Below are positions 248 through 50,787 of a DNA stretch of 56,151 bases, piece after piece. Both the position numbers and the translations under genes were made by a program. Source of the stretch: Deltaproteobacteria bacterium (GTDB lineage: Bacteria; BMS3Abin14); the NCBI GenBank assembly GCA_013151915.1, contig JAADHJ010000032.1, positions 1 to 56,151 on the forward strand, read 5' to 3'. The notes under the pieces are model-generated. The model saw only the letters and a list, made by a program, of their open reading frames with translations. It did not search any database and was not told the DNA's origin. How positions within the stretch are numbered: position 1 is the stretch's first letter; the number at the start of each line of letters is the position of its first letter.

Positions 248-475
248 GGTTCATCCTGTATGAGTACCAGGATAAGAACCATACCCCACCATTCGTCATC
301 GCGAACCGTATCCCGCCATCTGTCATCGTGCCTGTCCGCCATAGCCCGTAGGGCGACGGCGGAAGCGATCCCATGGGCGGCCGGCGGGCGCTGCTATGAC
401 CCTTTCGGCTCCGCCCGGGATTGCCGCGTCACTCTCGTCTATCTCGATGTTCCTCGCAATGACTTCGCTGGTCAT
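248..475 (-). repeat. MITE-like intergenic element, copy A, reversed and truncated
   Basis: This is the reverse-oriented relative of the elements at 8621-8894 and 42886-43091. It starts with the TTCATCC...GAGTACC terminus, continues through GTCATCGCGAACC and GGGATTGCCGCGTCACTCTCG, and ends in CTCGCAATGAC, the complement of the GTCATTGCGAG core seen in the other copies. The far terminus is missing: the sequence passes directly into a heptamer array. No transposase is encoded. Confidence 0.65.
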
Positions 476-656
476 TGAACGTTGAACATTGAACCTTGAA
501 CCTGTTTTACCTTATAGCCCATAGCCTATTGTCCGCTCTTCCCCTCTGGACACTGGACTCTGGACTGCTCTTCTTCTCTGGACACTGGACTGACGACTTA
601 CCGCGTTGAACATTGAACGTTGAACGTTGGACCTGTTTCATCCCGTTGAACCTTTT
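473..656. repeat. Degenerate heptamer array 1
   Basis: Read in 7-bp steps, this spacer gives ATTGAAC, GTTGAAC, ATTGAAC, CTTGAAC, then AGCCCAT and AGCCTAT, then CTCTGGA, CACTGGA, CTCTGGA, and again TGAACAT, TGAACGT, TGAACGT. The phase appears to hold while the unit changes. It ends directly at the stop codon of the adenine deaminase gene. Confidence 0.75.
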
Positions 657-658
657 TA

Positions 659-2389
659 TTATTCCCTCACTTCCAATTCCACCGGGGAAAAGGCCGTGAC
701 GTCAAAGAGACCCCTATCGGTGAGTTTCAGCTCCGGAATTACCGGCAGGGCGAGAAAAGACAGGATCATGAAAGGGTCTTCAAGCCGACACCCGGTTTTT
801 CGTGCCCCCGATTTTACCTCCTTCAGTTCCATCATAAGGGAATCGGCATTCCCGTCGTAAAGAAGCCCCGATATGGGCAAAGGAAGCACGGTCACAGAGT
901 CCCCATCAACCGCGACGGACAATCCGCCTCCATTATCGATAAGCGCGTTCACGGCCGCAGCAGCGCTGTGTGAATCAGCTGATACACAGATGATGTTGTG
1001 GGAGTCGTGTGCCACGCTGGACGCGATGGCCCCTCTCCTGAGGCCAAAACCCCTTACGAGTCCCATACCGCATCTGCCGCTGCCGTGGTGCCTTTCAAGG
1101 ACAAACAATGACGCAAGGTCTTTTGAGGAATCGTGAAGAAAGAACCGATCCTGATCGGTCCTTATCTCTTCTATGGAACCTTTTGTCAGGAGCGAACCCG
1201 GGACAACCTCCATAACCCGTGCCATTGGGTTGGGGACTGAGAATAAAATCCTTAAATAATCATTGGTTATCATCTTTAAATTAATGGAGTTTCTCAATTT
1301 ACTCCGGACCGATGCCTGCTCCATGGCGGGGAAAAACTCCCCATCCGATGACACCTGCTTACCGGACTTGAATACGGTCTTTATCTGGAATGATTTCATA
1401 TCATCGAAAACCACCAGATCCGCCAGGTATCCCGGCGCCACCGCCCCCCGGTCACTTAAACCGAAGTGCTCCGCCGGATTAATGGTGATCATCCTTATTG
1501 CCTCAACCGGGTCGAGCCCACATTTGACGGCCTTTCTTAATAAAAGGTCCATATGTCCCGACTCCATGAGTTCATCCGGGTGACGGTCGTCCGTGACCAG
1601 CATGAAACGGTTGAAGTTTAGCGGCGTAACGGCTGGAAGAAGGTTTTCAAGGTCATGGGCGCTTGTTCCCTCTCTCATCATGATCCGTAATCCCAGGCGG
1701 ACCTTCTCCCGGGCTTCCTCCGCATTTGTACATTCGTGGTCAGACCGTATCCCCGCGGCGGCGTAGGCGTTCAGAGGTTTGCCTGAGAGCATGGGGGCAT
1801 GGCCGTCGATTGGTCTCCCTGCACTGGAAAGGATCTTTGCGATAACCGAATCATCGCCGTTGACCACACCTGGGAAATTCATGACCTCCGCCAATCCAAT
1901 GACCCTTGGATGGTTGAAAAGGCGTTTTATTTCCCTGACGCCGATTACGGCGCCTGATGTTTCGAAGGTGGTTGCCGGAACGCACGAGGGGGCCATGAGA
2001 TAAAGGTCAAGAGGGATCCCCTCACTGTCGGCCAGGATAAATTTGATCCCTTCCAGGCCCGATACATTGGCGATTTCATGGGGGTCCGCCACCATGCAGG
2101 TGGTTCCCCGCGGGACGATCAGCCTGGCCAACTCGCTTGGCCTGAGCATGGTGCTTTCGATGTGGAAGTGAGCCTCGATGAACCCGGGGGCAACGTACGA
2201 GCCTTCGAGGTCGATGACCTCATCCGCATCATATTCACCCAGACCGGCAATCCTGTCGTCCATAACAGCGATATCCGTTTTTTGGATCTCGCCCGTGAAG
2301 GTATTGATTAACCTTGCGTTTTTCAGGAGCAGGTGTGCCGGTTCATCCCCGCGGGAAACAGCCAGGAGTTTTTTCAGAAAGTCATCCAT
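659..2389 (-). CDS. ade: Adenine deaminase
   Basis: A 576-aa amidohydrolase-superfamily protein of the adenine deaminase family, which hydrolyses adenine to hypoxanthine and ammonia in purine salvage. The N-terminal composite domain (LLKNARLINTFTGEI) leads into the metal-binding strand EAHFHIESTML, followed by VADPHEIANV, IDGHAPMLSG and the MLVTDDRHPDEL stretch expected to carry the catalytic acid. The C-terminal VAHDSHNIICV segment is typical of this family. The ATG at 2389 was chosen over one 14 codons upstream because it has a strong GGAGGGG ribosome site and shares one base with the stop of the upstream radical SAM gene (TGATG), indicating translational coupling. Length is normal. Transcription probably comes from upstream. 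Confidence 0.93.
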   Translation of the reverse strand: MDDFLKKLLAVSRGDEPAHLLLKNARLINTFTGEIQKTDIAVMDDRIAGLGEYDADEVIDLEGSYVAPGFIEAHFHIESTMLRPSELARLIVPRGTTCMVADPHEIANVSGLEGIKFILADSEGIPLDLYLMAPSCVPATTFETSGAVIGVREIKRLFNHPRVIGLAEVMNFPGVVNGDDSVIAKILSSAGRPIDGHAPMLSGKPLNAYAAAGIRSDHECTNAEEAREKVRLGLRIMMREGTSAHDLENLLPAVTPLNFNRFMLVTDDRHPDELMESGHMDLLLRKAVKCGLDPVEAIRMITINPAEHFGLSDRGAVAPGYLADLVVFDDMKSFQIKTVFKSGKQVSSDGEFFPAMEQASVRSKLRNSINLKMITNDYLRILFSVPNPMARVMEVVPGSLLTKGSIEEIRTDQDRFFLHDSSKDLASLFVLERHHGSGRCGMGLVRGFGLRRGAIASSVAHDSHNIICVSADSHSAAAAVNALIDNGGGLSVAVDGDSVTVLPLPISGLLYDGNADSLMMELKEVKSGARKTGCRLEDPFMILSFLALPVIPELKLTDRGLFDVTAFSPVELEVRE

Positions 2390-3411
2390 CAACTCCCCTC
2401 CCCCGGCACGCCGTAAAATGCCGTACCGCATTTTGGGCAGGCGCCGTCCTGTGAAAGGTTCGAGCTTATGAGGGTAAAACCGCTTCGTTCAAGGAGAAGA
2501 TGACCGCAGTTGTGACATAAGGTCTGGTCGTTTCCCTGGGAGATATTCCCCAGGTAGGTGTATTTCAGGCCTTCGTTTCTTCCGGCCCTCTCAGCCCTCC
2601 GGAGGGAGCCCATAGGTGTTGGAGGACGATCCGTCATCTTATACGTCGGGAAAAACCGGGATATGTGCCACGGGATGAGCGGATCGATCGAGGCGATGAA
2701 TTCCGCAATAAATCCAAGGGACCGCTCATCATCGTTCAGCCCTGGAATCAGGAGAGTCGTCACCTCTATCCAGACACCCGCCTCGTAAAGGGCCCTGATC
2801 GTCTCGAGGACAGGCTCCAGACGAGCGCCACAGACCTGATGATAGAAGTCATCCGTGGCTCCCTTCAGATCCACATTCGCCGCGTCAAGACAAGGTGTAA
2901 CCATGTCAATGGCCTCTGGAGTCATGAAGCCGTTGGTTATGAAGACATTCTTCAGCCCTGCTTCCCTGCCCTGCCGACAGCAGTCCAGAGCATATTCCAG
3001 AAATATGGTCGGTTCGGTGTATGTATATGATATGGATCGGCATCCGGATGCCAGGGCCTTGTTTACAACTTCGTCAACTGTCCTGAATTGCCCCGGGATC
3101 GAGGTGTCATTGGGTGACAGGATGCTTATCTCGTAATTCTGGCAATGCCGACAGGACAGGTTGCAGCCGGCGGTTGCCACGGAGTATGAAACGCTTCCGG
3201 GAAGAAAATGATAAAGGGGTTTCTTCTCGATGGGATCGACATGTTCGGCAACCAGTTTCCCGTAAACCAGGGTGTAAAGGGTTCCCCCCCTGTTCTCACG
3301 GACCCGGCATATTCCCCTTTTCCCGGGCAATATCCTGCATCTGTGGGCGCACATCCGGCAATGGACCTGGTTGTCATCCCCTTTTTCGTAGAGAATCGCC
3401 TCGTGCTGCAT
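2389..3411 (-). CDS. amrS: AmmeMemoRadiSam system radical SAM enzyme
   Basis: A 340-aa radical SAM protein of the AmrS family. An N-terminal Cys cluster (CRMCAHRCRILPGKRGICRVRENR) precedes the SAM/[4Fe-4S] motif CNLSCRHCQNYEIS; TYTEPTIFLEY and ITNGFMTPEA follow. The C-terminus carries a CHNCG...CPKCG zinc-ribbon-like pair, as in family members. Family proteins usually occur with AMMECR1 and Memo genes. Neither is in this window, so the substrate cannot be read from context. The ATG at 3411 was chosen because the 63 residues before it are low-complexity and overlap the FHA gene. A modest AGGGGT lies about 10 bases upstream. The stop overlaps the adenine deaminase start. Confidence 0.9.
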   Translation of the reverse strand: MQHEAILYEKGDDNQVHCRMCAHRCRILPGKRGICRVRENRGGTLYTLVYGKLVAEHVDPIEKKPLYHFLPGSVSYSVATAGCNLSCRHCQNYEISILSPNDTSIPGQFRTVDEVVNKALASGCRSISYTYTEPTIFLEYALDCCRQGREAGLKNVFITNGFMTPEAIDMVTPCLDAANVDLKGATDDFYHQVCGARLEPVLETIRALYEAGVWIEVTTLLIPGLNDDERSLGFIAEFIASIDPLIPWHISRFFPTYKMTDRPPTPMGSLRRAERAGRNEGLKYTYLGNISQGNDQTLCHNCGHLLLERSGFTLISSNLSQDGACPKCGTAFYGVPGEGS

Positions 3412-4677: not shown

Positions 4678-5769
4678 TTGGCCGATTTTACACCTGAGGA
4701 GGTTTTACAGAAGAAGGGATCAGGCGAAAGCCTGGCGGGCCTGAATCTGGTCAGGATCTCCCTGAAGGGGAAAGATCTGGCCGGGGTGGACCTGCACGAA
4801 GCCAATCTGCAGTATGCCGACCTTTCCAACGTTGACCTGAGCCGGGCCAACCTCTCAGGCGCGGATCTTTCTTATGCCAACCTGAGTGGGGCCAGGCTCA
4901 GGGGCGCTAACATGGAGAAGGCCCGTATGGTCGCCGCAGAGATGATCAATACCGACCTCAGAGAGTCGAACCTTTCCGGCACGGTGGTGGACGACGCCAG
5001 ATTACCCGGGTGCGACCTATCAGCCTCCAACCTTTCAGGGGCTACCATGAGACGCTCCGAGGCACGGGATATCAATGCCAACGGCGCCGTTATGGATGGT
5101 GTTGACATGGAGGAATCCCGGTTGGACGGCGCCTCCTTGAGAGGCGCTTCCCTTATTGGAGCAAACCTTACGGGCGCAGTCCTGACCGGGGCCGACCTGT
5201 CGGGAGCGGACCTGAAAAAAGGGACCCTCATCCGTGTGGATTTCAGTAAATCGAGGCTTTGCTCGACCGGGTTTGTGGAGGCGAATCTCATGAATTCCAC
5301 TCTTAAAGCGGTCCAGGCACCGGCCGCCGATTTCTCCCTCGCAAACCTTACGGGGGTGAACCTCACGGATGCCGGCGTCCAGAAGGCCATTTTTCGAAGT
5401 GCCGAGATGACCCATGCAGAACTTTCCAATGCAGATTGTGCCGAGAGTGATTTCAGCTACTCCAGAATGTCCTACGTCACCGCGGAAGGGGCGAACCTGA
5501 CAAAGTGTTTCTTCGTTGGAACTACGCTCACCGATGCCAGGATGAAGAAGTGCCGGATGGGGGGAGCTGACATGAGAGATGCCATCGTAGCCGGGTGCAG
5601 CCTCTTAGGCTCGGATCTTTCAGGCGCAAACCTTCAAAACGCCGACCTCTCGAGGGCTATTGTGACAGGGGCCGATTTTTCAAGGGCCGACATGACCGGG
5701 GCCAACATTGTGGGTACCGATCTGCGGGATGCCAAGCTTGAAGGGACACGACACCCGGGAGCCGGCTAA
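4678..5769 (+). CDS. Pentapeptide-repeat protein
   Basis: A 363-aa protein made almost entirely of A(D/N)LXX pentapeptides from about residue 30 to 355, for example ANLQYADLSNVDLSRANLSG and SGADLKKGTLIRVDF. Such repeats fold into a right-handed quadrilateral beta-helix. No signal peptide, membrane segment or extra domain is visible, so it is probably cytosolic. Known members range from DNA-mimic topoisomerase protectors to uncharacterised scaffolds, and sequence alone does not choose. TTG at 4678 is taken as the start because GGAGG lies 9 bases upstream and the nearest in-frame upstream ATG (4651) meets a stop after two codons. The gene is divergent from the FHA gene and convergent with the kinase gene, so it probably has its own promoter. 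Confidence 0.85.
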   Translation: MADFTPEEVLQKKGSGESLAGLNLVRISLKGKDLAGVDLHEANLQYADLSNVDLSRANLSGADLSYANLSGARLRGANMEKARMVAAEMINTDLRESNLSGTVVDDARLPGCDLSASNLSGATMRRSEARDINANGAVMDGVDMEESRLDGASLRGASLIGANLTGAVLTGADLSGADLKKGTLIRVDFSKSRLCSTGFVEANLMNSTLKAVQAPAADFSLANLTGVNLTDAGVQKAIFRSAEMTHAELSNADCAESDFSYSRMSYVTAEGANLTKCFFVGTTLTDARMKKCRMGGADMRDAIVAGCSLLGSDLSGANLQNADLSRAIVTGADFSRADMTGANIVGTDLRDAKLEGTRHPGAG

Positions 5770-5771
5770 AA

Positions 5772-6026
5772 CACGTATCCCAGTCCAGAGTCTAGCGTCC
5801 AGAGTCCAAAGTGGAAAAGCAGGCTATAGGCTGTAGGGTAAAGCAAGTTCAACGTCTAACGAGAGAAAAACGTTCAACGTTCAATGTCCAAAGGGGAAAA
5901 GCAGACACGGTGACGCAGTCCAAGTGTCAAAGTATGGAAGTATCGAGGTGCCCAGACCCAAGATCCCAGATCCCAAGCCCTGCACTCTGGACTTTCGACT
6001 CTGGACTCTGGACTATAACTCTTAGC
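5772..6026. repeat. Degenerate heptamer array 2
   Basis: This spacer between convergent genes reads in 7-bp steps nearly end to end: CAGAGTC, TAGCGTC, CAGAGTC; AGGCTAT, AGGCTGT; ACGTTCA, ACGTTCA, ATGTCCA; AGATCCC, AGATCCC; GGACTCT, GGACTCT, GGACTAT. Five or more unit families follow one another without an obvious loss of phase. No terminator hairpin is evident for either flanking gene. Confidence 0.75.
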
Positions 6027-6027
6027 C

Positions 6028-8466
6028 CTACTGTTTCAGTACTGTTTTAAGTTCCATCAGGGCCGTTCCCACATCCTGGAAACGGTTATTCACGTCTTTC
6101 TCCATACACTTGAGAATGAATCCTGACAACGCCGGCGGAATCGAGGGGTTGAATTTTTCAGGCGGCGGGGGTGCTGTGTGAACGTGATGGTACATGACGT
6201 CCCCCTCCTTGAACGGAACGGTGCCCGTAAGAAATTCATAGATGGTGACGCCGACAGCATACAGGTCGGCCCGGTGGTCGACCTGTCCGCCAAGGATCTG
6301 TTCCGGCGACATGTAGAAAGGGGTTCCGGCCATCTGCGTATGGGTCTTTCTACCCTCCGCGATGGCCCTTGCAAGTCCGAAATCGGTGATCTTCACGAGT
6401 TTTTCATCCCTTGACCAGAGGAGGTTGGCGGGTTTGATGTCCCTGTGGACGATGCCCTTGCTGTGGGCGTATGCCAACGCACGCAGGACCTGACCCGCGA
6501 TGACAAGCGCCGGTTTCAATTCGAACATTCCCTGTTTTTCAAGAATCTCCTTAAGGGAGTCGCCATCGACAAACTCCATGACAATATAGTACTCGCCTCT
6601 TTTCTGATCGGCATCGTAGATGACAACGATGTTGGGATGGGAGAGCCTGGCCGCTGATTTCGCCTCCCTCAGGAACATCTCCAGAACCCTCTGGTTTCTC
6701 TGAGCCTGCGGCGGCAATATCTTATAGGCCACGATCCTGTCGAGCAGGGTATCCCTCGCCTTGTAAACAACTCCCATCCCCCCCCTGCCGACCTCCTCGA
6801 CGATCTCGTATCGACCGTCTTTTGCCGACGTCCCGGATCCACCGGCGACCATGGTAGCGTCTGGGGGGGGGGACTGGTCGCCGATAAGCCTGCCCTGTCC
6901 CGGGGAAGAGGCCCCCAGGAGGGCTTTCATGGAGGTCACCTGGTCCTTTACGTCCCTGTAATGGTAATCCACAAGAAGGATCTTTTCCAGAATCGATACC
7001 GCCCCATGGAGTTGACCGTCTTCCTTCAGGGACGCGGCGTACCTGTAAAAGGAATCCAGATTATCCCGCCGGGGATTCTCATCCGCGATGGCCTTCTGGT
7101 AGGCGGCAATGGCCAGGGACCACATCCTCTGGCCGAAAAAGAGTTCTCCCAGGAGGCGGTTGGCTTCGGCGTAATCCGGGCTGGTCTTTTCAACCTTCTG
7201 CAGAGCCTCCGTGGCATCCTCTTCCTTGCCCAAAGATATGAGGGATCGTGCAGCCTGAAAGAAGGCGCCGGCATCAAGAAGCGCCCGGGCCTCCTGTTCC
7301 GTTTCCCCCAAGTCCCGAAAAATCCGGGCCGCATCCTCGGCCCGGCCGCCGGCCAGAAGGAGATTCGCCGCATCGGAAGATTTTCCCAACTCGATGAGAA
7401 GATCCGCGGCCGAACGATGATCATCCGCTTTTCCGAAAGCTTCAACCGCCCTTTCTTTCTCCCCGGCGGCGACGAAAATCTCAGCGGCTCTCCTCCACTC
7501 TCCAATACGCCCGAGCAGCTCCGCGGCCTTGATTGTCTGGCCTTCATCCAGAAGGGCTTGGGCAACATCCAGCCCTCCTTCTTCTGGTGTGTCGGATGAT
7601 CCCAGGATGCGGGCAGCCGATGCCGCGTCCTTGGCCTTCATGTAGAGTTCAGACGCCTTTCGACCCTTACCCAATTCCTCATAGAGTCTGGCAGCCTGCT
7701 TGAAGTGCCCACCGGTTTCAAGAACCTTTGCGGCTTTTCCTCTCTGGTTGGCCTGAAGGAGGCTAAAGGAGGCAAGGGCGGCCAGGTTTTTAGAGACACG
7801 GTCCTCCTCAGGGGCGACGGATGGATCCCTTCGGCTCACCCTTTCCTGCAGGGCCCTGACCATGCGGGGCGCGGCCCTGGAATGCTCACCAGCCTCGGCC
7901 AGAAGTTCTCCCGCTTTCTGGTGATGACCTGTCTTGGAGTAAAACTCAGCCGCCCGCGGGGAGTTTCCCCCTTTTTCGAAAAGAAGGGCCGCCTCATGGA
8001 AACGATCAACCTTAACCAGGTTTTCCGCGGCCTGAATGAAGTCCTTTGTTCTTGCGAAAAATTCGGCCGCCTGGCCATAGGCGCCTATCCTCACCAGACA
8101 TTCCGCCGCGTTGGCATAGTCGTTCATGGCCACACAGGACTCGGAAGCCTTTTCATATTCGCCCACTTTGACAAAAGCCTCGGCCGATTCCCTGAAGCGC
8201 CCGGCAGAGGCGTAGAGGGCCCCGGCCTCGGCGTGATTCCCCTTTTTCTCGGCTTTTTTTGCTTTTTTGATAAAAAAACGGGCGGGACGGTCCGCCGGAG
8301 GTTTGTCCTCACGGTTCCTGAATGCAAAGAGGATGAGGCAGAGAAGCGAAAGCCCCCCCGCGGTCACCGCGATTGTGTCCGTGGGCCCAAGTGCCCAGGG
8401 TGAGGGAATGGAATGTCGGGCGAGAAAGGCCTCGATCGCGGCTTGATAGCTGGAAATAGCGGACAT
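6028..8466 (-). CDS. Membrane-anchored Ser/Thr protein kinase with alpha-solenoid repeats
   Basis: An 812-aa protein. One hydrophobic segment (about residues 29-49) is followed by a basic stretch, then about 400 residues of helical repeats with a period near 20 aa (GxxxxAAExxxxxG, TPR/SNAP-like), and a C-terminal Hanks-type kinase at about 553-810. Kinase motifs are intact: glycine loop VGRGGMGVVYKA, VAYK lysine (about 582), HRDIKPANLL (674 on), DFGLA (695 on), GTPFYMSPEQ. Domain order is reversed from the common bacterial receptor kinase: here the anchor is N-terminal, and the solenoid and kinase are probably both cytosolic. The solenoid suggests regulation by protein partners. An FHA gene lies nearby. 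No Shine-Dalgarno is seen, but a TATAAT lies 8 bases before the ATG. Confidence 0.93.
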   Translation of the reverse strand: MSAISSYQAAIEAFLARHSIPSPWALGPTDTIAVTAGGLSLLCLILFAFRNREDKPPADRPARFFIKKAKKAEKKGNHAEAGALYASAGRFRESAEAFVKVGEYEKASESCVAMNDYANAAECLVRIGAYGQAAEFFARTKDFIQAAENLVKVDRFHEAALLFEKGGNSPRAAEFYSKTGHHQKAGELLAEAGEHSRAAPRMVRALQERVSRRDPSVAPEEDRVSKNLAALASFSLLQANQRGKAAKVLETGGHFKQAARLYEELGKGRKASELYMKAKDAASAARILGSSDTPEEGGLDVAQALLDEGQTIKAAELLGRIGEWRRAAEIFVAAGEKERAVEAFGKADDHRSAADLLIELGKSSDAANLLLAGGRAEDAARIFRDLGETEQEARALLDAGAFFQAARSLISLGKEEDATEALQKVEKTSPDYAEANRLLGELFFGQRMWSLAIAAYQKAIADENPRRDNLDSFYRYAASLKEDGQLHGAVSILEKILLVDYHYRDVKDQVTSMKALLGASSPGQGRLIGDQSPPPDATMVAGGSGTSAKDGRYEIVEEVGRGGMGVVYKARDTLLDRIVAYKILPPQAQRNQRVLEMFLREAKSAARLSHPNIVVIYDADQKRGEYYIVMEFVDGDSLKEILEKQGMFELKPALVIAGQVLRALAYAHSKGIVHRDIKPANLLWSRDEKLVKITDFGLARAIAEGRKTHTQMAGTPFYMSPEQILGGQVDHRADLYAVGVTIYEFLTGTVPFKEGDVMYHHVHTAPPPPEKFNPSIPPALSGFILKCMEKDVNNRFQDVGTALMELKTVLKQ

Positions 8467-8474
8467 GGGCTGGG

Positions 8475-8504
8475 ATTATAGGATAAAACAGGTCCAACGT
8501 CCAA
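8475..8504 (-). promoter_or_regulatory. Possible promoter giving a leaderless kinase mRNA
   Basis: On the minus strand TTGGAC (8504-8499), an 18-bp spacer and TATAAT (8480-8475) end 8 bases before the kinase ATG at 8466. Initiation about 7 bases past the -10 box would start at or next to the ATG, which fits the absence of a ribosome site. The -35-like hexamer is itself part of a heptamer repeat, so this may be chance. Confidence 0.35.
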
Positions 8505-8580
8505 CGAGGAAAATAACGTTCAAGGTTCAATGTGAAAAACAAGCTGTAAGCTGTAGGCTATAGGTGTAGGTAAGGGCAGT
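8482..8580. repeat. Degenerate heptamer array 3
   Basis: Units include GGTCCAA and CGTCCAA, ACGTTCA and AGGTTCA, then CTGTAAG, CTGTAGG and CTATAGG. The CTATAGG class also occurs in array 2. The array directly abuts the kinase promoter region and is followed by a MITE-like element. Positions 8467-8982 contain no gene I can support. Confidence 0.65.
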
Positions 8581-8620: not shown

Positions 8621-8894
8621 GGTTCATCCGGTTAATGCGTACCTTATATTATTATTTTGCCGTCATTGCGAGGAGCATCGAGGGAGACGAGAGTGACGCG
8701 GCAATCCCGGGCGACTTGTCGCGGCGAAGTTCGAAGAACGAAGACGGAAGCCGAAAAGGTCATTGCGGCGCCCTCCGGCCGCTATGGGATCGCTTCGCAT
8801 GGGTTACAGCTCGCGATGACAAATGGCGGGATACGGTTCGCGATGACAAATTGGGGTATGGTCCTCATCCAGGTACTCATTTCCAGGATGAATC
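8621..8894 (+). repeat. MITE-like intergenic element, copy B, the most complete
   Basis: The left terminus GGTTCATCCGGTTAATGCGT matches the complement of the right terminus GGTACTCATTTCCAGGATGA imperfectly, giving terminal inverted repeats of about 25 bp. The interior carries GTCATTGCGAGGAGCATCGA, GACGCGGCAATCCCG and CCTCCGGCCGCTATGGGATC, shared with copies A and C. There is no transposase. Related CATTGCGAGG intergenic repeats are common in many bacterial genomes. The closed ends seen here suggest a non-autonomous mobile element. Confidence 0.7.
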
Positions 8895-20307: not shown

Positions 20308-20361
20308 TAGCTGACCCTCCTCTCCACGGATTTATTATAATAAATAAGGATGTTTGCTTAT

Positions 20362-20555
20362 CAAGTTTGATGACTTCGCAAAAAGTCATCAATGCGCCCA
20401 CTGAGGGGCGCCCAAATCAATGACTTGTCCCGCAGGTCATCGATTTGCGGGACAAGTGTTGTTGATTTGTGAGGAAAGTGAAAATGACACTTTTCGCTTT
20501 CCGTTGAGTAAAAAGCCATTCATGGACTTTTTACGACCCTACCAAGTTTGACCAG
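20362..20555. repeat. Hairpin element, family 3, full-length form
   Basis: This is the longest copy. TGATGACTT/AAGTCATCA hairpin at 20368-20391; a CGCCCACTGAGGGGCG dyad; a dyad with arms TGACTTGTCCCGCA and TGCGGGACAAGTG around 20420-20460; the GGAAAGTGAAAA/CTTTTCGCTTTCC dyad; and ATGGACTTTTTACGACC at the end. Both flanks carry AAGTTTGA-like sequence, possibly a target duplication. The gap between thiD and the COX24-like gene (20308-20616) contains nothing else I can support. Confidence 0.65.
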
Positions 20556-24086: not shown

Positions 24087-24115
24087 AGTTTAAAGTTAAA
24101 AACAAAAAGTTTCAA
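24087..24115 (-). promoter_or_regulatory. Predicted sigma-70 promoter for the thi operon
   Basis: Minus strand: TTGAAA (24115-24110), 17 bp, TAAACT (24092-24087). Expected initiation near 24080 coincides with the first bases of the riboswitch, which supports the call. Confidence 0.55.
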
Positions 24116-24118
24116 GTT

Positions 24119-24142
24119 TGATGACTTTATAAAAAGTCATCA
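24119..24142. repeat. Hairpin element, family 3, hairpin only
   Basis: TGATGACTT, a short TATAA-containing loop and AAAGTCATCA form a near-perfect stem. The preceding CAAGTT and following AACGCGCCC match the left end of the full copy at 20362. It sits upstream of the thi promoter. Confidence 0.6.
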
Positions 24143-24157
24143 ACGCGCCCGTTTTTT

Positions 24158-24252
24158 CCCTCTGGACACTGGACTCTGGACTGATTTACCCCGTTGAACA
24201 TTGAACGTTGAACGTTATTATTTGGACCTTGGACGTTGGACGTTCTTTATTG
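24158..24252. repeat. Degenerate heptamer array 4
   Basis: Units CTCTGGA, CACTGGA, CTCTGGA are followed by TTGAACA, TTGAACG, TTGAACG and TTGGACC, TTGGACG, TTGGACG. The unit families are the same as in array 1 and in the same order. It fills the gap between the thi control region and the 3' end of hypE. Confidence 0.72.
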
Positions 24253-24271
24253 GACGTTCTCCCGCCGATTT

Positions 24272-25291
24272 TCAGCATATCCTCGGAAGCATTTCCCCCG
24301 AGAGCCTGTCGACCAGCCTATGGCCTCCAAGCGGGGTATTCATGACAACTGTACGGGGGTGGTCCCGTACGACTTCTCCTATGATCGCCGCCTCACCCCC
24401 AAGAGGATCGGAACGAATCACCCGGAGCGCATTATCCGCGGCTTCCGGGGCGACAATGGCCACCAGTTTGCCCTCATTGGCAAGGTATAAAGGGTCGTAT
24501 CCCAACAGTTCACAGGCTCCCTTCACCCCTTCCCGCACAGGGATGGCCTCTTCGTTGATTCGAATGCCGACATTCGATTGCACTGATATCTCGTTCAGTA
24601 CGGTTGCCAACCCTCCCCTTGTGGGATCCCGGAGAACGTGGACCTGGTCGCCAAGCGCCCTGACGAGGGCGGAGACCATACTGTTGAGCGAGGCGCTGTC
24701 GCTCGAAACGACCGTTGAAAACCGAATCCCCTCCCTCGATGACGCTACAGCTATCCCATGGTCCCCGATGGTCCCCGAGAGAAGGATCACGTCACCCGGT
24801 TTCGCCTCCTGCCCGCCAATGACGCAACCTGCGGGAATAATTCCGATTCCCGTGGTGTTGATAAAGATCCTGTCGGCCGACCCCCTGGGGACGACCTTGG
24901 TATCGGCGGTGACGATCCGGACTCCAGCCGTTCCGGCCGCAGCGGACATGGAACCTGCGATTATTTCCAGATCTTCCAGGAGTAAACCCTCCTCGAGGAT
25001 GAACCCAGTGCTAATGGCAATCGGGATTGCCCCCGACATGGCCACGTCGTTGACGGTACCGTGTACGGCAAGGCTCCCGATATCGCCGCCGGGAAAGAAG
25101 ATCGGGTCTATGGTATAGGTGTCGGTACTCATGGCGATGCGGCCTCCCGGCACCTCGAAAACGGCATAATCATTGAGCATCAACAGCGCCGGATCGTCGA
25201 AATATTTCAGAAAAATCCGTTCCGTCAGGGCCTGACTCATCTTGCCGCCGGCCCCGTGGGCCAGCAGTACCCGATCGGTCTTCAAATTCAT
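24272..25291 (-). CDS. hypE: Hydrogenase maturation protein HypE
   Basis: A 339-aa PurM-like ATPase that dehydrates the carbamoyl group on its C-terminal Cys to thiocyanate, the source of cyanide ligands for the [NiFe] site. Motifs: LLAHGAGGKMSQALTERIFL, STDTYTIDPIFFPGGDIGSL, HGTVNDVAMSGA, VTADTKVVPRGSADRIFINT, LRDPTRGGLATVLNEI and the C-terminal PRIC with the acceptor Cys. ATG 25291 was chosen because the longer frame starts in heptamer repeats; GGAGG is very close (about 2 bases), so initiation may be weak. It is the last gene of the hydrogenase operon. Confidence 0.95.
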   Translation of the reverse strand: MNLKTDRVLLAHGAGGKMSQALTERIFLKYFDDPALLMLNDYAVFEVPGGRIAMSTDTYTIDPIFFPGGDIGSLAVHGTVNDVAMSGAIPIAISTGFILEEGLLLEDLEIIAGSMSAAAGTAGVRIVTADTKVVPRGSADRIFINTTGIGIIPAGCVIGGQEAKPGDVILLSGTIGDHGIAVASSREGIRFSTVVSSDSASLNSMVSALVRALGDQVHVLRDPTRGGLATVLNEISVQSNVGIRINEEAIPVREGVKGACELLGYDPLYLANEGKLVAIVAPEAADNALRVIRSDPLGGEAAIIGEVVRDHPRTVVMNTPLGGHRLVDRLSGEMLPRIC

Positions 25292-25321
25292 TCCTCCAAC
25301 GTGAGAGTCCAGGGGGGTTAA

Positions 25322-25406
25322 AGAAGGTTCAACGTTCAATGTTCAACGTGGAAAAGCCAGACGTCAGCTTTCTCTGGACACTGGACTTTGGACTCTGGAC
25401 TTTAAT
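25322..25406. repeat. Degenerate heptamer array 5, inside the hyp operon
   Basis: ACGTTCA, ATGTTCA and ACGTGGA are followed by CTGGACA, CTGGACT, TTGGACT, CTGGACT. It occupies most of the 122-bp gap between hypD and hypE, genes normally a few bases apart. Confidence 0.7.
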
Positions 25407-25413
25407 ATCCGGT

Positions 25414-26523
25414 TCAACCCCCACCGGAATACTTGAACCAGGCGGCACAGGATCCCTCCGAGGACACCATGCACGATCCAATAGGCATGTCCGGGGTGCA
25501 GCCCAAACCAAACAGGGGACATTCCGGAGGTGAGGTTACACCGCGCAGAACCTCCCCGCAGGCGCATTCCGGAGGGTCGGACCCGGTGGGAACAGCGGCA
25601 AGGCCGAACCGTTCAACGGCGTCAAAGGCCATGAAGGCATCGTTGAAACCCAGGCCGGAAGAGGGTATGACCCCCAACCCCCTCCACGGGGCATCGCACG
25701 GCTGAAAAACCTCGAGGAGAAGGGACATGGCATTCTGATTTCCATCCTCGGAAACCGCCCGTGAATAGGCGTTGCCAACCTCATGTTTATCATTAAGTAA
25801 TTGATCTAAAATCATTGATATTCCTAATAAAATATCCAGTGGTTCGAAACCGGCAACAACACACGGCTTTTGATATTTCGAACTGAATGGGCGGTAGGCA
25901 GCCGCTCCTAACATGATGCTGACATGGCCCGGACACAGGAAACCGTCAATGGCGACATCCCCGCCGTCGAGAAGGGCTTCAAGGGCTGGGGGAAGAAGCT
26001 TGAAAGCGGGATAGACGGAAAAATTGGCAAGCCCGGCGGTTTTCGCCCTCTTTACAACCGCGGCAACGGTGGGCGAGGTGGTCTCGAACCCCACGCCCAG
26101 GAAAACAATCTCCTTTTCCGGGTTCTCCTCGGCCCAAAGGAGTGAATCGAGAGGCGATGTGGTCACCCGGACGTCCGCGCCCGAGGCCATTTCCCTCTCC
26201 AGGCTGGTCACGGTGCCGGGAACCCGGATCATGTCCCCGAAGGTGGCTATGATGTGGCTATCCCGTTCCTCCCCACAGGCAAGGGAGATCATCCGGTCCA
26301 TATCCTCCATGGCTGTGACACACACGGGACACCCCGGTCCGGAAATCATTGTGACGTTCGGCGGAAGAACGCTCTTGATGCCTGATCTGAAGATGGAAAC
26401 CGTGTGGCTTCCGCAGATCTCCATGATCTTGACCGACCGTGAAAGCCGCGATGCGGATGATCGGATCCTACCTATCAGCGCCTTCGCTATTGAAGGATCC
26501 CTGAACTCGTCAAGATACTTCAT
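25414..26523 (-). CDS. hypD: Hydrogenase maturation protein HypD
   Basis: A 369-aa iron-sulfur scaffold that, with HypC, assembles the Fe(CN)2CO unit. Motifs: KIMEICGSHTVSIFRSGI with its conserved Cys, ISGPGCPVCVTAMEDMDRMI, IATFGDMIRVPGT, FLGVGFETTSPT, FLCPGHVSIMLG, VVAGFEPLDIL and the C-terminal cluster region CACGEVLRG...CPLFGLGCTP. ATG 26523 begins the normal HypD N-terminus (MKYLDEFRDP). The frame upstream is coded by a hairpin repeat and is not expected to be translated. The gap to hypC is unusually long (149 bp) because of that repeat. Confidence 0.95.
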   Translation of the reverse strand: MKYLDEFRDPSIAKALIGRIRSSASRLSRSVKIMEICGSHTVSIFRSGIKSVLPPNVTMISGPGCPVCVTAMEDMDRMISLACGEERDSHIIATFGDMIRVPGTVTSLEREMASGADVRVTTSPLDSLLWAEENPEKEIVFLGVGFETTSPTVAAVVKRAKTAGLANFSVYPAFKLLPPALEALLDGGDVAIDGFLCPGHVSIMLGAAAYRPFSSKYQKPCVVAGFEPLDILLGISMILDQLLNDKHEVGNAYSRAVSEDGNQNAMSLLLEVFQPCDAPWRGLGVIPSSGLGFNDAFMAFDAVERFGLAAVPTGSDPPECACGEVLRGVTSPPECPLFGLGCTPDMPIGSCMVSSEGSCAAWFKYSGGG

Positions 26524-26545
26524 CGTCAATGAGCTGCCTTTGATA

Positions 26546-26689
26546 GGGTCGTAAAAAATCCATTCGTGGTTTTTTACTCCGCGGAAAGCGAAAAATGTCA
26601 TTTTCACTTTCCTTGCAAATCTTCGATTTGAGCACCCTTAAGAGGGCGCGATGATGACTTTTTATAAAGTCATTACAAAGTCATCATGT
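26546..26689. repeat. Hairpin element, family 3, between hypC and hypD
   Basis: GGGTCGTAAAAAATCC, the dyad GGAAAGCGAAAA/TTTTCACTTTCC, AAATCTTCGATTT, and the ATGATGACTTT...AAAGTCATTA hairpin with a second AAAGTCATCAT. The right end reaches into hypC and supplies its last codons and stop. The element has the same parts as the copy at 20362-20555, in inverted orientation. Confidence 0.65.
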
Positions 26690-29900: not shown

Positions 29901-29925
29901 CCGTTGAACTTTGAACTTTGAACGT
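29901..29925. repeat. Short heptamer tract, hypA-hypB gap
   Basis: GTTGAAC, TTTGAAC, TTTGAAC, then GTGC. Three TTGAAC units sit in the 42-bp gap between two genes of one operon. Confidence 0.55.
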
Positions 29926-42885: not shown

Positions 42886-43091
42886 GGTTCATCCGGTTCT
42901 TATATTATTATTTTGCTGTCATTGCGAGGAGCATCGAGTGAGACGAGAGTGACGCGGCAATCCCGTGCGGAGCTGAAAAGCTCGTCACGGCGCCCTCCGG
43001 CCGCTATGGGATCGCTTCGCATGGGTTACACGATGACGAATGGTGGGGTATGATCCACTCCACATCCAGGTACTCGTTTCCCGGATGATCC
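42886..43091 (+). repeat. MITE-like intergenic element, copy C
   Basis: It starts GGTTCATCCGGTTCTTATA and ends ACTCGTTTCCCGGATGATCC, so the ends are inverted as in copy B. The interior GTCATTGCGAGGAGCATCGA, GACGCGGCAATCCCG and CCTCCGGCCGCTATGGGATC match copy B closely, with a small internal deletion. The 437-bp gap 42870-43306 holds this element, a hairpin repeat and the promoter region of the hotdog genes, with no other gene. Confidence 0.7.
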
Positions 43092-44194: not shown

Positions 44195-44773
44195 TTGCAG
44201 GCGCACAGGCTTTCCCGCCTTTCCCTTGTGGCTGCCCTTTATGTTGTCCTGACCTACCTGGCCAACATTCTCGGACCGGGGTTGAACCTCGGTTACGGTC
44301 CCATCCAGATCCGCATATCTGAAGGCCTGGCCATGTTGGCCCTCTTCGATCCACTCATGCCCCTTGCTCTTTACGCCGGCTGCCTGATCGCCAACGTCAT
44401 CGGTGGGCTGGGCCTCCCGGATATCATCTTCGGTCCCCTCCTGACCCTTGCGGCGGGATATGCCACATGGGCCACCCGCCGCATCCCGGTGGTACCCTTT
44501 GTCCCTCCCATCCTTTTCAACGCTTTGGGGGTGGCCGGCTACCTTTACTTCCTCCTGGGAATCGATTTCGGCTTTGCCCCTGTTCACGGAACCGGAGCTG
44601 GAACCTGGATTATCAATCTGGCCGCTTCCCACCCATACTGGGCCATGGTGTTCTCCATCGGGGTCGGTCAGACAATCTCGGTTGTTCTCTTCGGGCTGCT
44701 CTTCATGAAGATCTGGAAGCGGTCCGGCGGTCTGACTTCCGACGGCGGAATGAAACGGCTGAACGAACGATAG
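44195..44773 (+). CDS. QueT-family ECF transporter S component
   Basis: A 192-aa membrane protein with five or six hydrophobic segments. Family signatures: YGPIQIRISEGLAMLALFDPL, GCLIANVIGGLGLPDIIFGPLLTLAAGYATW and GVGQTISVVLFGLLFMKIW. QueT proteins are predicted S components that take up a queuosine precursor with a shared ECF energy module, which is not in this window. The start is TTG at 44195, after GGAGG 10 bases upstream inside the end of the previous gene. It is the last gene of a three-gene plus-strand unit. A functional link to the hotdog proteins is not obvious. Confidence 0.85.
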   Translation: MQAHRLSRLSLVAALYVVLTYLANILGPGLNLGYGPIQIRISEGLAMLALFDPLMPLALYAGCLIANVIGGLGLPDIIFGPLLTLAAGYATWATRRIPVVPFVPPILFNALGVAGYLYFLLGIDFGFAPVHGTGAGTWIINLAASHPYWAMVFSIGVGQTISVVLFGLLFMKIWKRSGGLTSDGGMKRLNER

Positions 44774-44778
44774 AACAG

Positions 44779-44838
44779 ATCCAAATAACAACGTTCAACG
44801 TCCAAGTAATAATGTTCAACGTTCAACGTTCAACGTGA
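44779..44838. repeat. Degenerate heptamer array 6
   Basis: ACGTTCA, ACGTCCA, then ATGTTCA, ACGTTCA, ACGTTCA, ACGTGAA. It lies between the converging queT-like and HU genes, beside the HU terminator. Confidence 0.65.
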
Positions 44839-45282: not shown

Positions 45283-45403
45283 GGGCAATCAGGTCACAGC
45301 CCGCATAAATATGAGGTTTCCGGGGGAATAACGCTTGAAACGGAGAACGGATAAGAGTAAGATTTCACATACCGTATTATGGTCTCTTTTGCTTAGGAAA
45401 AAA

Positions 45404-46924
45404 ATGCCTTTCAGAAATGTCCCCCATAAAAAGCAGATTCTTTTTTCCCTTTTCCTTTTCTTTATAGCCGCTCTCGTATTGACAGCGAGCGATTATATGG
45501 CGGCGCAGAAGACCATAATGAAGGAATATGGGGAATATGCAGGGAAAATCGCGGATTACCTCAGCGGCATGCTGCCGGTTCACTCATCCTCCGACGCAGG
45601 TGTTTTCTTGCCGGCGGAAAGCTTCCCCGCCTATGGCGAGAAAATACGGAATGTCATTTCAAGCTTTCATCTGGACAACGTAAATGTCTATTCCGTTGAC
45701 AGAAAGCTCCTCTTCTCCCTGGATTCCGAAATGATCGGAAAAACTGTTGAAAAATACCCGGCGTTGGACCAGGCCATTGAAGGGGTTGGGTCTTCCCGTG
45801 TGGCCACACCCTCCTATCACCAACAGGCCTACGGACGCGACTTAGACCACCCATTGCTCGAAACCTACATTCCGATTCATGATCGCACCACCGGGAAAAT
45901 CCTCGGTGTGTTCGAGATATACCAGGACTACCGTCCCATGAGGTCCCACGTCAGAAAGGAGACTCTTCGATCGAGCATCGCCCACAACATCCTCCTTGGG
46001 GTCTTTGTCCTACTCTTTTTCAGTTACGGGCGAACCACCTCCCGAATACTGGAGGGTGAACGGGTTGAAATGATCAATGATCTTGAAGACCGCATTAAGG
46101 AGAGGACCCTCGAATTGACGGTGTCAAAGAAAAAAATCGATGATCTGCTCGAACGGACAGCCCGGATGTATAGGGAACTGAAAATTGCAGACGAATACCA
46201 GAAAAATTTTATCGGTCTGGTCAGCCATGAATTAAGGACCCCTCTCACCGTTATCAAGGGTTACCTTTCTCTACTCGAAGAAGGGGTATTGAAACCGGGC
46301 CATCCCGAGACCATGGCGGCTTTGGAGACCAGCCTGGATGAAGTCGGAAACCTTGAGTCGATCGTAAACAACATCATTGAGCTGTCCCAGCTTGATAAGA
46401 ATGTACAACAGATCTTCAGGGAAGAGATTGAAGTCAAGGCCCTTCTGGACGAGGCAGTCTCATCGGTAGCGAAAGAGATCAAGAACCAGGGAGTTGAAGC
46501 CGTTATCAGCGTTCCGCCCGAAGCTGGAGTGGTCCATTCCGACCGTATGAAAGTCCTTCAGGTTCTCAATCAGCTTGTCTCAAACGCCGTTAAATTTTCA
46601 AAAAGCGGCGGGAAGATCACCATCACAGCCGCTCCAAGCCACCGAGGTCTGCTCCTTTCGGTAAGTGATGAAGGCGTGGGGATACCCGAATCCCAGCTGA
46701 AGGAGATTTTCAATCGCTTTTATCAGGTGGATATCACCATGACAAGGAACTATGAGGGATCAGGTCTGGGATTGGCCATCGTCCGTAAAGTAACGGGGCT
46801 TCTCGGAGGAAGGGTCTGGGTTGACAGCCAGGAAGGGATTGGCAGCACGTTTTTCTTCGAGATACCCGAGATGAAAAAAGGGGAAACGGCTGAAATGGAA
46901 CCGTTCCCCCCGACTGTTGACTGA
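45404..46924 (+). CDS. Membrane sensor histidine kinase
   Basis: About 506 aa. Transmembrane helix 1 (about 11-28), a periplasmic sensor domain of about 160 residues (NVNVYSVDRKLLFSLDSEMI suggests a Cache/PAS-like fold), helix 2 (about 197-212), a coiled coil, HisKA with phospho-acceptor His near 275 (LVSHELRTPLTVIKGY), and HATPase with QLVSNAVKFS, SDEGVGIPES, FNRFYQ and EGSGLGLAIV. All catalytic boxes are intact. ATG 45404 was preferred, with AGGA upstream; a TTG at 45335 adds 23 residues and also has a possible GGGGGAA site. No response regulator lies beside it; the three receiver-containing loci elsewhere in the window are candidates only. Confidence 0.92.
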   Translation: MPFRNVPHKKQILFSLFLFFIAALVLTASDYMAAQKTIMKEYGEYAGKIADYLSGMLPVHSSSDAGVFLPAESFPAYGEKIRNVISSFHLDNVNVYSVDRKLLFSLDSEMIGKTVEKYPALDQAIEGVGSSRVATPSYHQQAYGRDLDHPLLETYIPIHDRTTGKILGVFEIYQDYRPMRSHVRKETLRSSIAHNILLGVFVLLFFSYGRTTSRILEGERVEMINDLEDRIKERTLELTVSKKKIDDLLERTARMYRELKIADEYQKNFIGLVSHELRTPLTVIKGYLSLLEEGVLKPGHPETMAALETSLDEVGNLESIVNNIIELSQLDKNVQQIFREEIEVKALLDEAVSSVAKEIKNQGVEAVISVPPEAGVVHSDRMKVLQVLNQLVSNAVKFSKSGGKITITAAPSHRGLLLSVSDEGVGIPESQLKEIFNRFYQVDITMTRNYEGSGLGLAIVRKVTGLLGGRVWVDSQEGIGSTFFFEIPEMKKGETAEMEPFPPTVD

Positions 46925-46961
46925 CAATCACTTCCAAAGCTGATTTACCACCGCGCGACTC

Positions 46962-47258
46962 AGGCCGGGGGAGTCCAGAGTTGAGAGTCCAGAGTCCAGA
47001 GGGACGCGGTCAGAACATAAGGTAACACTTCATTACCCCAATACTTCCATACCTCGACACGCCCTTACTCTCCGCGTTCGTTTTTCTTCTCTCTGGACAC
47101 TGGACTGACTTACCACATTGAACGTTTTTTAACCCTGTTGAACCTTTGAACGTTCTTTAATCCCGTTGAACCTTTGAACGTTCTTTTTTGGACCCGCTCT
47201 TCTCCTCTGGACACTGGACTCTGGACTGCTTTACCCCATTGGACATTGGACGCTCTTT
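46962..47258. repeat. Degenerate heptamer array 7, the longest
   Basis: Units GAGTCCA, GAGTTGA, GAGTCCA, GAGTCCA at the left; CTGGACA and CTGGACT in the middle; several pairs of TTGAACC and TTGAACG separated by T-rich steps; then CTGGACA, CTGGACT, CTGGACT and TTGGACA, TTGGACG at the right. It fills the spacer between the converging histidine kinase and oxidoreductase genes. No gene is visible in 46925-47260. Confidence 0.72.
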
Positions 47259-47260
47259 TT

Positions 47261-49546: not shown

Positions 49547-50544
49547 AGAACCCTCCTGAGATCTGCTCTCTTGCTTTGAACGTCCACGCCGGACTCCTCC
49601 TCGGCGGTCAGTGCTTCCACCGGACAGATCTCCACACATCGCAGACATCCCTTGCAGTATTGGTAATCAACGCCAAGCATGAAGGCGGTCTCGCGTCCCT
49701 TTTCATCCTTTCCCATCTCGAAAACCATGCAGTAATCAGGACAGGTAATGTCGCAGTCGCCGCAGTGAATACACTTGTCCTCATGCCATAGGGGGAAATA
49801 CCCCACGCGGGAGGCGTGATTGTTCTTGAGAATAGTATTGCCCGGGTTTGTGATTACCCCGCCCATCGGCTCGGTCAGGTAACCAAGAGCCGGCTGAGGC
49901 CTGTGGCTCTCAAGGGCCGGGAATTTATCCACTGAACTGAAATCCTGTGTTTCAATATCACTGTAGCCCCTGTCGAAGGCCCGCATGTTTCCATCGATCA
50001 GGTGTGGGTAGCGTTTGCCTATCTTGCCCTTGATGATGCTTTTTATCGCTTCCGGATCAAGGAAGCCGGATGCCCTGCTGATGGCGCCCAGCATGGCCGT
50101 GTTAAGGGGGACCTTCTCCTCCATGGAGATTTTCATGGCATCCACACAGAAGACCTTGCATCCGGTTATCTCCATAAGGGCCAGGGCGTCCTCAGGGGAC
50201 CGTTGGGTATTGATCACCACTACCCCACCCCTGGAAAAACCCTGTGTTATGGGGACGGATCCAATGAGTTGTTCCGTGAAGACGGCCAGAAGATGCGGTT
50301 CCTCCACAGGGGAATTGTTGGTAATAGCCTTCTCGCCGGAGCATATCCTGATAAATGCCTTTACCGGCGTGCCTTTTTTCTCGGATCCATAACTGGAGAA
50401 GTTGACCGCGTTCAATCCAATTTCCAGGATAACGGCCTCGGCGAGGATCTGACCGGCAAGGTTGGCGCCCATTCCCCCGATGCTCTCCATGCGGATCTCG
50501 TAGTAACCCAGTTCATTGGTGATGGGTATCTTGGTTTCCGACAT
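49543..50544 (-). CDS. 2-oxoacid:ferredoxin oxidoreductase, fused gamma-delta subunits
   Basis: A 333-aa partner of the alpha-beta fusion. Residues about 15-190 form the gamma domain that contacts CoA (MESIGGMGANLAGQILAEAV, FSSYGSEKKGTPVKAFIRI). The C-terminal part is a delta-type ferredoxin module with two complete [4Fe-4S] motifs, CIHCGDCDITCPDYC and CKGCLRCVEICPVEAL, which pass electrons to free ferredoxin. ATG 50544 has AAAGGAGA upstream, and an upstream alternative adds 11 residues. The order gamma-delta then alpha-beta, with ATGA overlap, is consistent with stoichiometric synthesis. Confidence 0.9.
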   Translation of the reverse strand: MSETKIPITNELGYYEIRMESIGGMGANLAGQILAEAVILEIGLNAVNFSSYGSEKKGTPVKAFIRICSGEKAITNNSPVEEPHLLAVFTEQLIGSVPITQGFSRGGVVVINTQRSPEDALALMEITGCKVFCVDAMKISMEEKVPLNTAMLGAISRASGFLDPEAIKSIIKGKIGKRYPHLIDGNMRAFDRGYSDIETQDFSSVDKFPALESHRPQPALGYLTEPMGGVITNPGNTILKNNHASRVGYFPLWHEDKCIHCGDCDITCPDYCMVFEMGKDEKGRETAFMLGVDYQYCKGCLRCVEICPVEALTAEEESGVDVQSKRADLRRVL

Positions 50545-50700: not shown

Positions 50701-50787
50701 TGGTGGGGGAGACGGGAATCGAACCCGTACGCCGTTACCGGCCCGGGATTTTAAGTCCCGTGCGTCTACCAGTTCCGCCACTCCCCC
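50701..50787 (-). tRNA. tRNA-Leu (UAA)
   Basis: Minus strand, 87 nt including an encoded CCA. Acceptor arms GGGGGAG/CTCCCCC, D-arm with GGTAGACGC, anticodon stem CGGGA/TCCCG around CTTAAAA, giving anticodon UAA, a long variable arm typical of class II leucine tRNAs, and the T-loop GGTTCGATTCC. The discriminator base is A, as leucine tRNAs require. Confidence 0.96.

Follow-up and report, generated by a model that had tools for sequence, protein, structure and literature searches.

Intergenic heptamer arrays with changing units and a consistent strand polarity in the BMS3Abin14 lineage

Organization of the locus

The window, that is, the whole stretch of DNA analysed here, has 56,151 nucleotides and is one contig (C32) of the 60-contig, 2.27-Mb genome of a Deltaproteobacteria bacterium; the analysis was carried out on stretches of this genome. 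Heptamers of the forms TTGAACn, TTGGACn, and CTGGACn stand in tandem in the window. They are sited between genes and are spread across the genome.

At 475..501, in the centre-ward block of the spacer, four TTGAACn units stand on the + strand. They are followed on the same strand, within 546..590, by runs of three (546-565) and two (578-590) CTGGACn units with the linker TGCTCTTCTTCT between them, and then, at 606..651, by three TTGAACn units and a TTGGAC in phase (606-632), a linker, and one TTGAAC (646). These last units run toward the 3′ end of gene 659-2431(-), which is adenine deaminase-like. The spacer at 5769-6027 is paired. Its left arm (5783..5891, - strand) consists of a CTGGAC/TTGGAC run (5783-5809), a CTATAGG-CTGTAGG stretch (5824-5837), and TTGAAC units to 5891, and points leftward, toward the 3′ end of gene 4678-5769(+). 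Two GATCCCA units (5962..5975, + strand) lie near the spacer centre, and the right arm, made of CTGGACn units (5987..6013, + strand), runs toward the 3′ end of gene 6028-8466(-). The 5′ end of this same gene is approached by two TTGGACn and two TTGAACn units (8492..8530, - strand).

At 24162..24255 (+ strand), three CTGGACn units, the linker TGATTTACCCCG, three TTGAACn, three TTGGACn, and another TTGGAC run toward the 3′ end of gene 24272-25339(-). The start side of this gene carries the left arm of a paired spacer, three TTGAACn units (25327..25346, - strand), and the right arm, four CTGGACn/TTGGACn units (25374..25400, + strand), runs toward the 3′ end of gene 25414-26607(-), encoding HypD. 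The product of gene 24272-25339(-) has an AIR-synthase fold and is probably HypE, judging from the neighbouring hyp genes. The segment 24272-29886 carries AIR-synthase (HypE-like), HypD, and CobW/HypB-like genes on one strand, separated by spacers that hold heptamer arrays. Three TTGAACn units follow at 29904..29923 (+ strand); the orthologous site of the sister species, G001, has one TTGGAC and an unchanged gene-side flank. TTGAACn/TTGGACn units at 44793..44833 (- strand) run toward the 3′ end of a QueT-like gene, 44195-44773(+). Finally, a further paired spacer has a left arm of CTGGACn units (46973..46999, - strand) directed toward the 3′ end of a sensor kinase gene, 45335-46924(+), and a right arm of linker-joined blocks, CTGGAC, TTGAAC, TTGGAC, CTGGAC, and TTGGAC (47093..47251, + strand), directed toward the 3′ end of gene 47261-49648(-). 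The genes flanking arrays are ordinary and unrelated, without common function. No known RNA family was found in the arrays, a tRNA at 50704-50787 being the sole match in the window.

Other repeats are also present. A dispersed hairpin-rich repeat of ~135-190 bp (GGGTCGTAAAAAGTCC...GGAAAGTGAAAATGACA...GATGACTTnnnAAGTCATCA) is found in the window at 26540-26675 and 20340-20545, and on contig C16 of the same genome at 46400-46540; it is MITE-like and has many copies in the genomes G001, G006, G007, and G011. A REP-like family (GTCATTGCGAGGAGCATCGAGGGAGACGAGAGTGACGCGGCAATCCCG) occurs at 370-475, 8660-8860, and 42910-43060, and also in G001 (81 bp, 91% to 42918-42998). The genome has RAYT-size Y1_Tnp genes, for example at C37:12697 and C44:52255. 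The heptamers themselves are direct, non-palindromic repeats and are thus distinct from the palindromic units of REP/RAYT systems.

Units, phase, and order of the arrays

A search of the window for three YTGRACn units in a row yields 15 hits; 100 dinucleotide shuffles yield none. Genome-wide, three consecutive TTGAACn units are matched 152 times, three CTGGACn units 147 times, and a reversed control pattern 0 times. The preliminary description of this DNA had proposed autocorrelation at lag 7 as a check, and the expected peak was found: in 452 kb of the genome, intergenic identity at lag 7 is 0.280, above all other lags from 2 to 30 (lag 1 exceeds it), whereas in coding DNA lag 7 is not raised (0.243) and a period-3 signal alone is seen. 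Exact hexamer recurrence amounts to 691 at lag 7 vs. 128-391 at lags 6 and 8-13. Likewise, the spacers of this genome contain 60 arrays at period 7 vs. at most 6 for each of the periods 5, 6, 8, and 9, with ~0 period-7 arrays in the shuffles that were run. The arrays are mainly intergenic, 83 of 87 runs being outside ORFs, and are present in a minority of spacers (43/310).

Among the unit families listed in the preliminary description, TTGAACn, TTGGACn, and CTGGACn are present where it placed them. CTATAGG/CTGTAGG (5824-5837) and GATCCCA (5962-5975) are minor units, each with one two-unit occurrence in the window, the latter being weak since 6 of 100 shuffles also match it. GAGTCCA is simply the reverse complement of CTGGACT. 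The kinship of the units through a common YTGRAC core was rightly seen, and the relatives widen the set to YTRRAN, with TTGGAT, CTGGAA, CTAGAC, and CTAGAA.

The 7-bp phase had been thought to continue across changes of family. It is kept within runs, not between blocks. Of the pairs of successive units, 183 have a 7-bp spacing and 13 an 8-bp spacing, and another 25 are separated by linkers and stand 18-20 bp apart. The unit changes at 52 steps; 32 keep the phase, including 23-27 between directly adjacent units such as TTGAAC-TTGGAC, and 20 lose it. The remaining changes span linkers such as TGCTTTACCCC or GTTCTTTATCCCG, and the phase is lost in most of them. A strict 7-bp phase over all blocks was therefore rejected, because the linkers joining runs have 12-14 bp and usually break it; at 473-656, the block changes fall at +50, +18, +21, and +19 bp. 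A clear in-phase switch, from four TTTGACG to four TTGAACG units, lies near position 71276 of contig C11 (locus L035, 71161-71361); the adjoining CTGGAC block is kept in G001, and the TTGAAC block is missing there.

A recurring order, CTGGAC, then TTGAAC, then TTGGAC, had also been reported for 473-656 and for 24158-24252, where the units stand at 24162-24255. Along the array strand, CTGGAC precedes TTGAAC/TTGGAC (TTGRAC) 12:3 genome-wide, and the order is longer than noted, CGCGTC-type 8-mers preceding CTGGAC 10:0. At 473-656, the array opens with TTGAAC and the order begins only at 546.

Strand polarity

The strongest regularity of the arrays is their strand polarity, which is absent from the preliminary description. 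Within a stack, arrays of several related families have one orientation and short linkers between them, and the two arrays of a pair run away from the middle of the spacer. In ten genome samples, with gene borders given by a simple ORF caller, 123 runs of at least 3 YTRRAN units were counted, of which 106 are directed at the gene border closest to them (p=6.6e-17); the YTRRAN generalisation was picked after the units of relatives had been seen. The ratio of toward to away is 66:11 at 3′ ends and 40:6 at 5′ ends. The polarity is thus equal at starts and ends of genes and, for that reason, is not a transcript rule and should not originate in transcription. In the same samples, 10 paired arrays are outward, 1 is mixed, and 0 are inward, with distances of 10-183 bp between arms, and most array spacers have one arm only. 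In the genome of the window, “+” units occupy the right half of spacers and “-” units the left half, and all 10 two-strand spacers with runs of at least 2 units are outward. There, the 8-mer TTGAACGT faces the nearer gene in 49 cases and the other way in 3; for CTCTGGAC, the counts are 73 and 13. Outside this genome, where the rule was found, 60 of 70 runs follow it; with the pattern fixed beforehand, CTGGAC in G001 is directed toward the gene in 20 of 22 cases.

Heptamer repeats are common in many bacteria, and the arrays might be plain simple-sequence repeats produced by slippage only, with polarity as a by-product of gene calling or ancestry. However, polarity persists when each spacer has one vote and both flanking ORFs have at least 150 aa (64:14 toward, p=8.6e-9). 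It is seen in several genera and several unit families, and the other dispersed repeats of the same spacers do not have it (32/63, 6/15, and 26/42). We consider such an explanation to be improbable. Inverted arms could also form RNA or DNA hairpins acting as terminators or stabilisers, as several paired spacers give a more stable fold than shuffled sequence does (z to -7.7). Yet folding is unremarkable in other spacers (z -0.4, +0.3), the second arm of such a hairpin is missing from most array spacers, and inward pairs, which should fold equally well, were not seen at all. A hairpin function, very unlikely in our opinion, was rejected: the folding excess is inconsistent and the lack of inward pairs is left unexplained.

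Variation among relatives

The phylum of the window, small and uncultured, contains 12 genomes, all of one family, and a part of each genome was read. The stretches of G003, G004, G005, G008, and G009, and most of those of G002, were taken irrespective of arrays; the regions of G006, part of G001, and a few others were chosen because they hold matches, so that their densities are biased upward. In this lineage the arrays are a general trait, with a preference for period 7 and no fixed unit. Indeed, period 7 dominates the spacers of 8 of the 9 genomes sampled (that of the window, G001, G002, G004, G005, G006, G008, and G009), the exception being G003, with 2 arrays in 100 kb. It is also dominant in the relatives L041 (“Pseudomonadota bacterium CSMAG_1715”) and L042 (“Proteobacteria bacterium SZUA-178”). 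No period-7 array was found in ~28 kb of spacers from unrelated phyla, taken at the same query gene, and three TTGAACn units in tandem are present in 3 of 3 genomes of one family in another phylum. The unit differs between genomes: CTGGACT in G001, TTTTGGA and GAATCAC in G002, CTGGAAT and CTAGACA in G009, CTAGAAA in G006. In G004, almost each array has its own unit (TTTGAGA, TTCTGCG, TTCTACA, CTCCCGG, and others).

The sister species G001 aligns to the window with ~80-88% identity (about 17% diverged). In its orthologous spacers, the array is absent, or has another number of units, or has another unit. The counterparts of array spacers in G001 are often short: 258 bp correspond to 4 bp (5769-6027), 336 to 11 bp (46924-47260), 155 to 3 bp (within 24115-24270), and, in another spacer, 179 to 28 bp. 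Among 114 orthologous spacers, lag-7 arrays are found in 17 of the genome of the window, in 9 of G001, and in 7 of both; 7 of the 9 array spacers of G001 are thus shared (p=1.4e-5; p=3.2e-4 for long spacers only). A 7-nt length step, of which few cases were met, occurs at C6 67555, with 4 vs. 3 units. The units are different in G001 at C6 90694, C11 63371, C16 78198, and window position 29904; C11 63371 and C16 78198 are shared array sites. From these alignments of sister species, units are gained or lost in 7-bp steps and differ in sequence at orthologous sites, gain and loss not being separable where an outgroup is lacking, as at most sites. The origin by copying or expansion advanced in the preliminary description is supported by these differences, in unit number at one orthologous site and in unit sequence at others. 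The centre of a paired-array spacer at C6 67620-67770 (L024), which is kept in G001, carries a long hairpin (CATTGGGTGGTCTCC...CCCAATGTCACC) that may be a small RNA.

The run at 25374-25400 is identical in the two species, which, at ~17% divergence, could reflect selection. The arrays might be polarised binding sites for a nucleoid-associated or RNA-binding protein and mark gene borders, as proposed for Geobacter metallireducens (IHF/HU). This identical run, the consistent orientation to gene borders, the confinement between genes (83/87 runs), and a paired layout as in Geobacter would fit such a role. However, unlike a regulator site, the motif changes completely among relatives and even between neighbouring arrays, only 43 of 310 spacers carry arrays, and the flanking genes have no function in common. 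We regard binding arrays as unlikely, the turnover of the motif arguing against them.

The presence or absence of entire spacers between the two genomes (258 vs. 4, 336 vs. 11, and 179 vs. 28 bp) might suggest instead that a small MITE-like mobile element inserts in spacers and has the arrays as its ends, in the form of outward inverted terminal repeats, the one-arm cases being copies that have decayed. Paired spacers are outward, with one exception, as would be expected. However, the centres between paired arms have no detectable similarity (no BLAST match), the arms of a pair often differ in units, no target-site duplication is visible in the comparison with a sister genome about 17% diverged, and arrays show no association with the dispersed hairpin repeats (1/92). 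As the centres have no common sequence and the arms need not match, the arrays should not be the ends of one element, and we hold this origin to be rather unlikely. A transposon with array ends was rejected for lack of a shared core; the idea that dispersed hairpin elements in these spacers seed the arrays was rejected too, the association being 1/92.

Possible origin of the arrays

Our leading proposal, to which we give somewhat less than an even chance, is a satellite-like intergenic repeat driven by 7-nt slippage, in which units are replaced in concert and a strand rule acts at the DNA level. Arrays would arise and change length through 7-nt slippage in DNA synthesis, as Mrazek proposed, and such slippage explains the 7-bp step as well. 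One unit sequence would replace another via copying between arrays (concerted evolution); such replacement would require either this inter-array copying or repeated re-seeding. Polarity and block order (10:0; 12:3) are not predicted by slippage alone. Less firmly, polarity may have its source in a process at the DNA level, mirror-symmetric with respect to the spacer. As a guess, repair synthesis might be primed from the gene-side 3′ ends flanking a break or gap in the spacer, with the NTYYAR strand slipping preferentially. Two results speak against this guess. Unit decay has no directional asymmetry at either edge of arrays, which gives one-end growth no support, and directional growth deduced from edge-unit decay was rejected. 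Moreover, no Ku homologue was found in the 12 genomes and no reverse transcriptase (RVT_1) in the genome of the window, so that end joining or templated addition would have no obvious enzyme. Most likely, the arrays do not share any gene-specific function.

A more active process can be imagined, in which DNA 3′ ends at gene borders are extended into the spacer, 7 nt at a time, by telomere-like terminal addition at chromosomal breaks or gaps, the template or slippage preference drifting between species. If true, it would explain at once why the period is fixed, why the unit changes, and why the polarity is outward. End addition based on reverse transcriptase or Ku was rejected, as these were not found in the genomes named above, and telomere-like addition in general seems highly improbable.

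Comparison with known heptamer repeats

Unrelated bacteria have for decades been known to carry heptamer repeats; to our knowledge, their cause has not been agreed upon, with polymerase slippage as the usual guess. The name STRR is tied to the heptanucleotide repeats of cyanobacteria. The preliminary description had recognised no described family with the behaviour of these arrays. In fact, the kind is documented in cyanobacteria, Xanthomonas, Beggiatoaceae, and Geobacter metallireducens; for YTGRAC arrays as such, no paper was found in literature searches from whose reach subscription journals were mostly excluded.

As far as Mrazek (2007) is reported in PMC4679880, the heptanucleotide is the most abundant long simple-sequence repeat in most surveyed bacterial genomes, and 7-nt slippage was proposed as its origin. 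According to the same kind of secondary account (Mrazek, 2007; Mazel, 1990; via PMC4679880 and PMC4692102), heptanucleotide repeats have 7-bp units, are intergenic and genome-wide, and contain a degenerate position. The present arrays have all of these features. They differ from heptanucleotide repeats/STRR by the many related unit families per genome, the ordered linker-joined blocks, and the polarity.

In Xanthomonas, the ORF nearer to a GGGAATC repeat lies almost exclusively 5′ of it (28 vs. 160 nt), and the repeats are often paired on opposite strands (PMC4692102). The layout described here equals theirs when read on the other strand. Xanthomonas GGGAATC and Nostoc GGGGAYT form intergenic arrays of a single G-quadruplex-forming family, with positions shared in two species (PMC4692102). 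In contrast, the units here are not G-tract repeats, no GGG tract occurring in the dominant ones, TTGAAC, TTGGAC, and CTGGAC.

In Geobacter metallireducens, tandem 7/8-mers (Gmet_I/Gmet_H4; MTYCTGA, GTTGCTYN, and TCTCCGTSY) are paired on opposite strands at variable distance, in classes with a fixed consensus each and few copies, for which IHF/HU binding is proposed (PMC2700814). The pairs of arrays on opposite strands at variable distance are alike in the two systems and apparently outward in Geobacter also. Compared with the Gmet_I classes, the main units here differ and have no fixed consensus, resemblance to class 2 being confined to a CTCCGYGTC stretch upstream. Family switching and a relation to gene borders do not appear in the available portion of the Geobacter text (PMC2700814).

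In Beggiatoaceae, intergenic TAACTGA heptamers are mostly directed toward a nearby gene start, some sets being split by related 7-mers, and 7-nt indels are found between Cyanothece strains (PMC4679880). TAACTGA is not among the enriched lag-7 words of the genome studied here. Moreover, the Beggiatoaceae repeats have one dominant unit and concern mainly start codons, whereas here both gene ends are equally concerned and the unit is not fixed.

Thus, in our reading of the published descriptions, the Xanthomonas and Geobacter layouts would agree with the polarity reported here on the matching strand. What is added to the known repeats is the presence of many related units per genome, the ordered blocks, the unit differences at orthologous sites, and a polarity that is equal at both gene ends. 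Such a polarity, at both ends and across unit families and genera, is predicted neither by slippage alone nor by an RNA function. Any well-annotated heptamer-rich genome, as in cyanobacteria, Xanthomonas, or Burkholderia, can be tested against this sharp criterion, and the question of why seven, and why there, becomes answerable by strain comparison or by a mutation-accumulation experiment.
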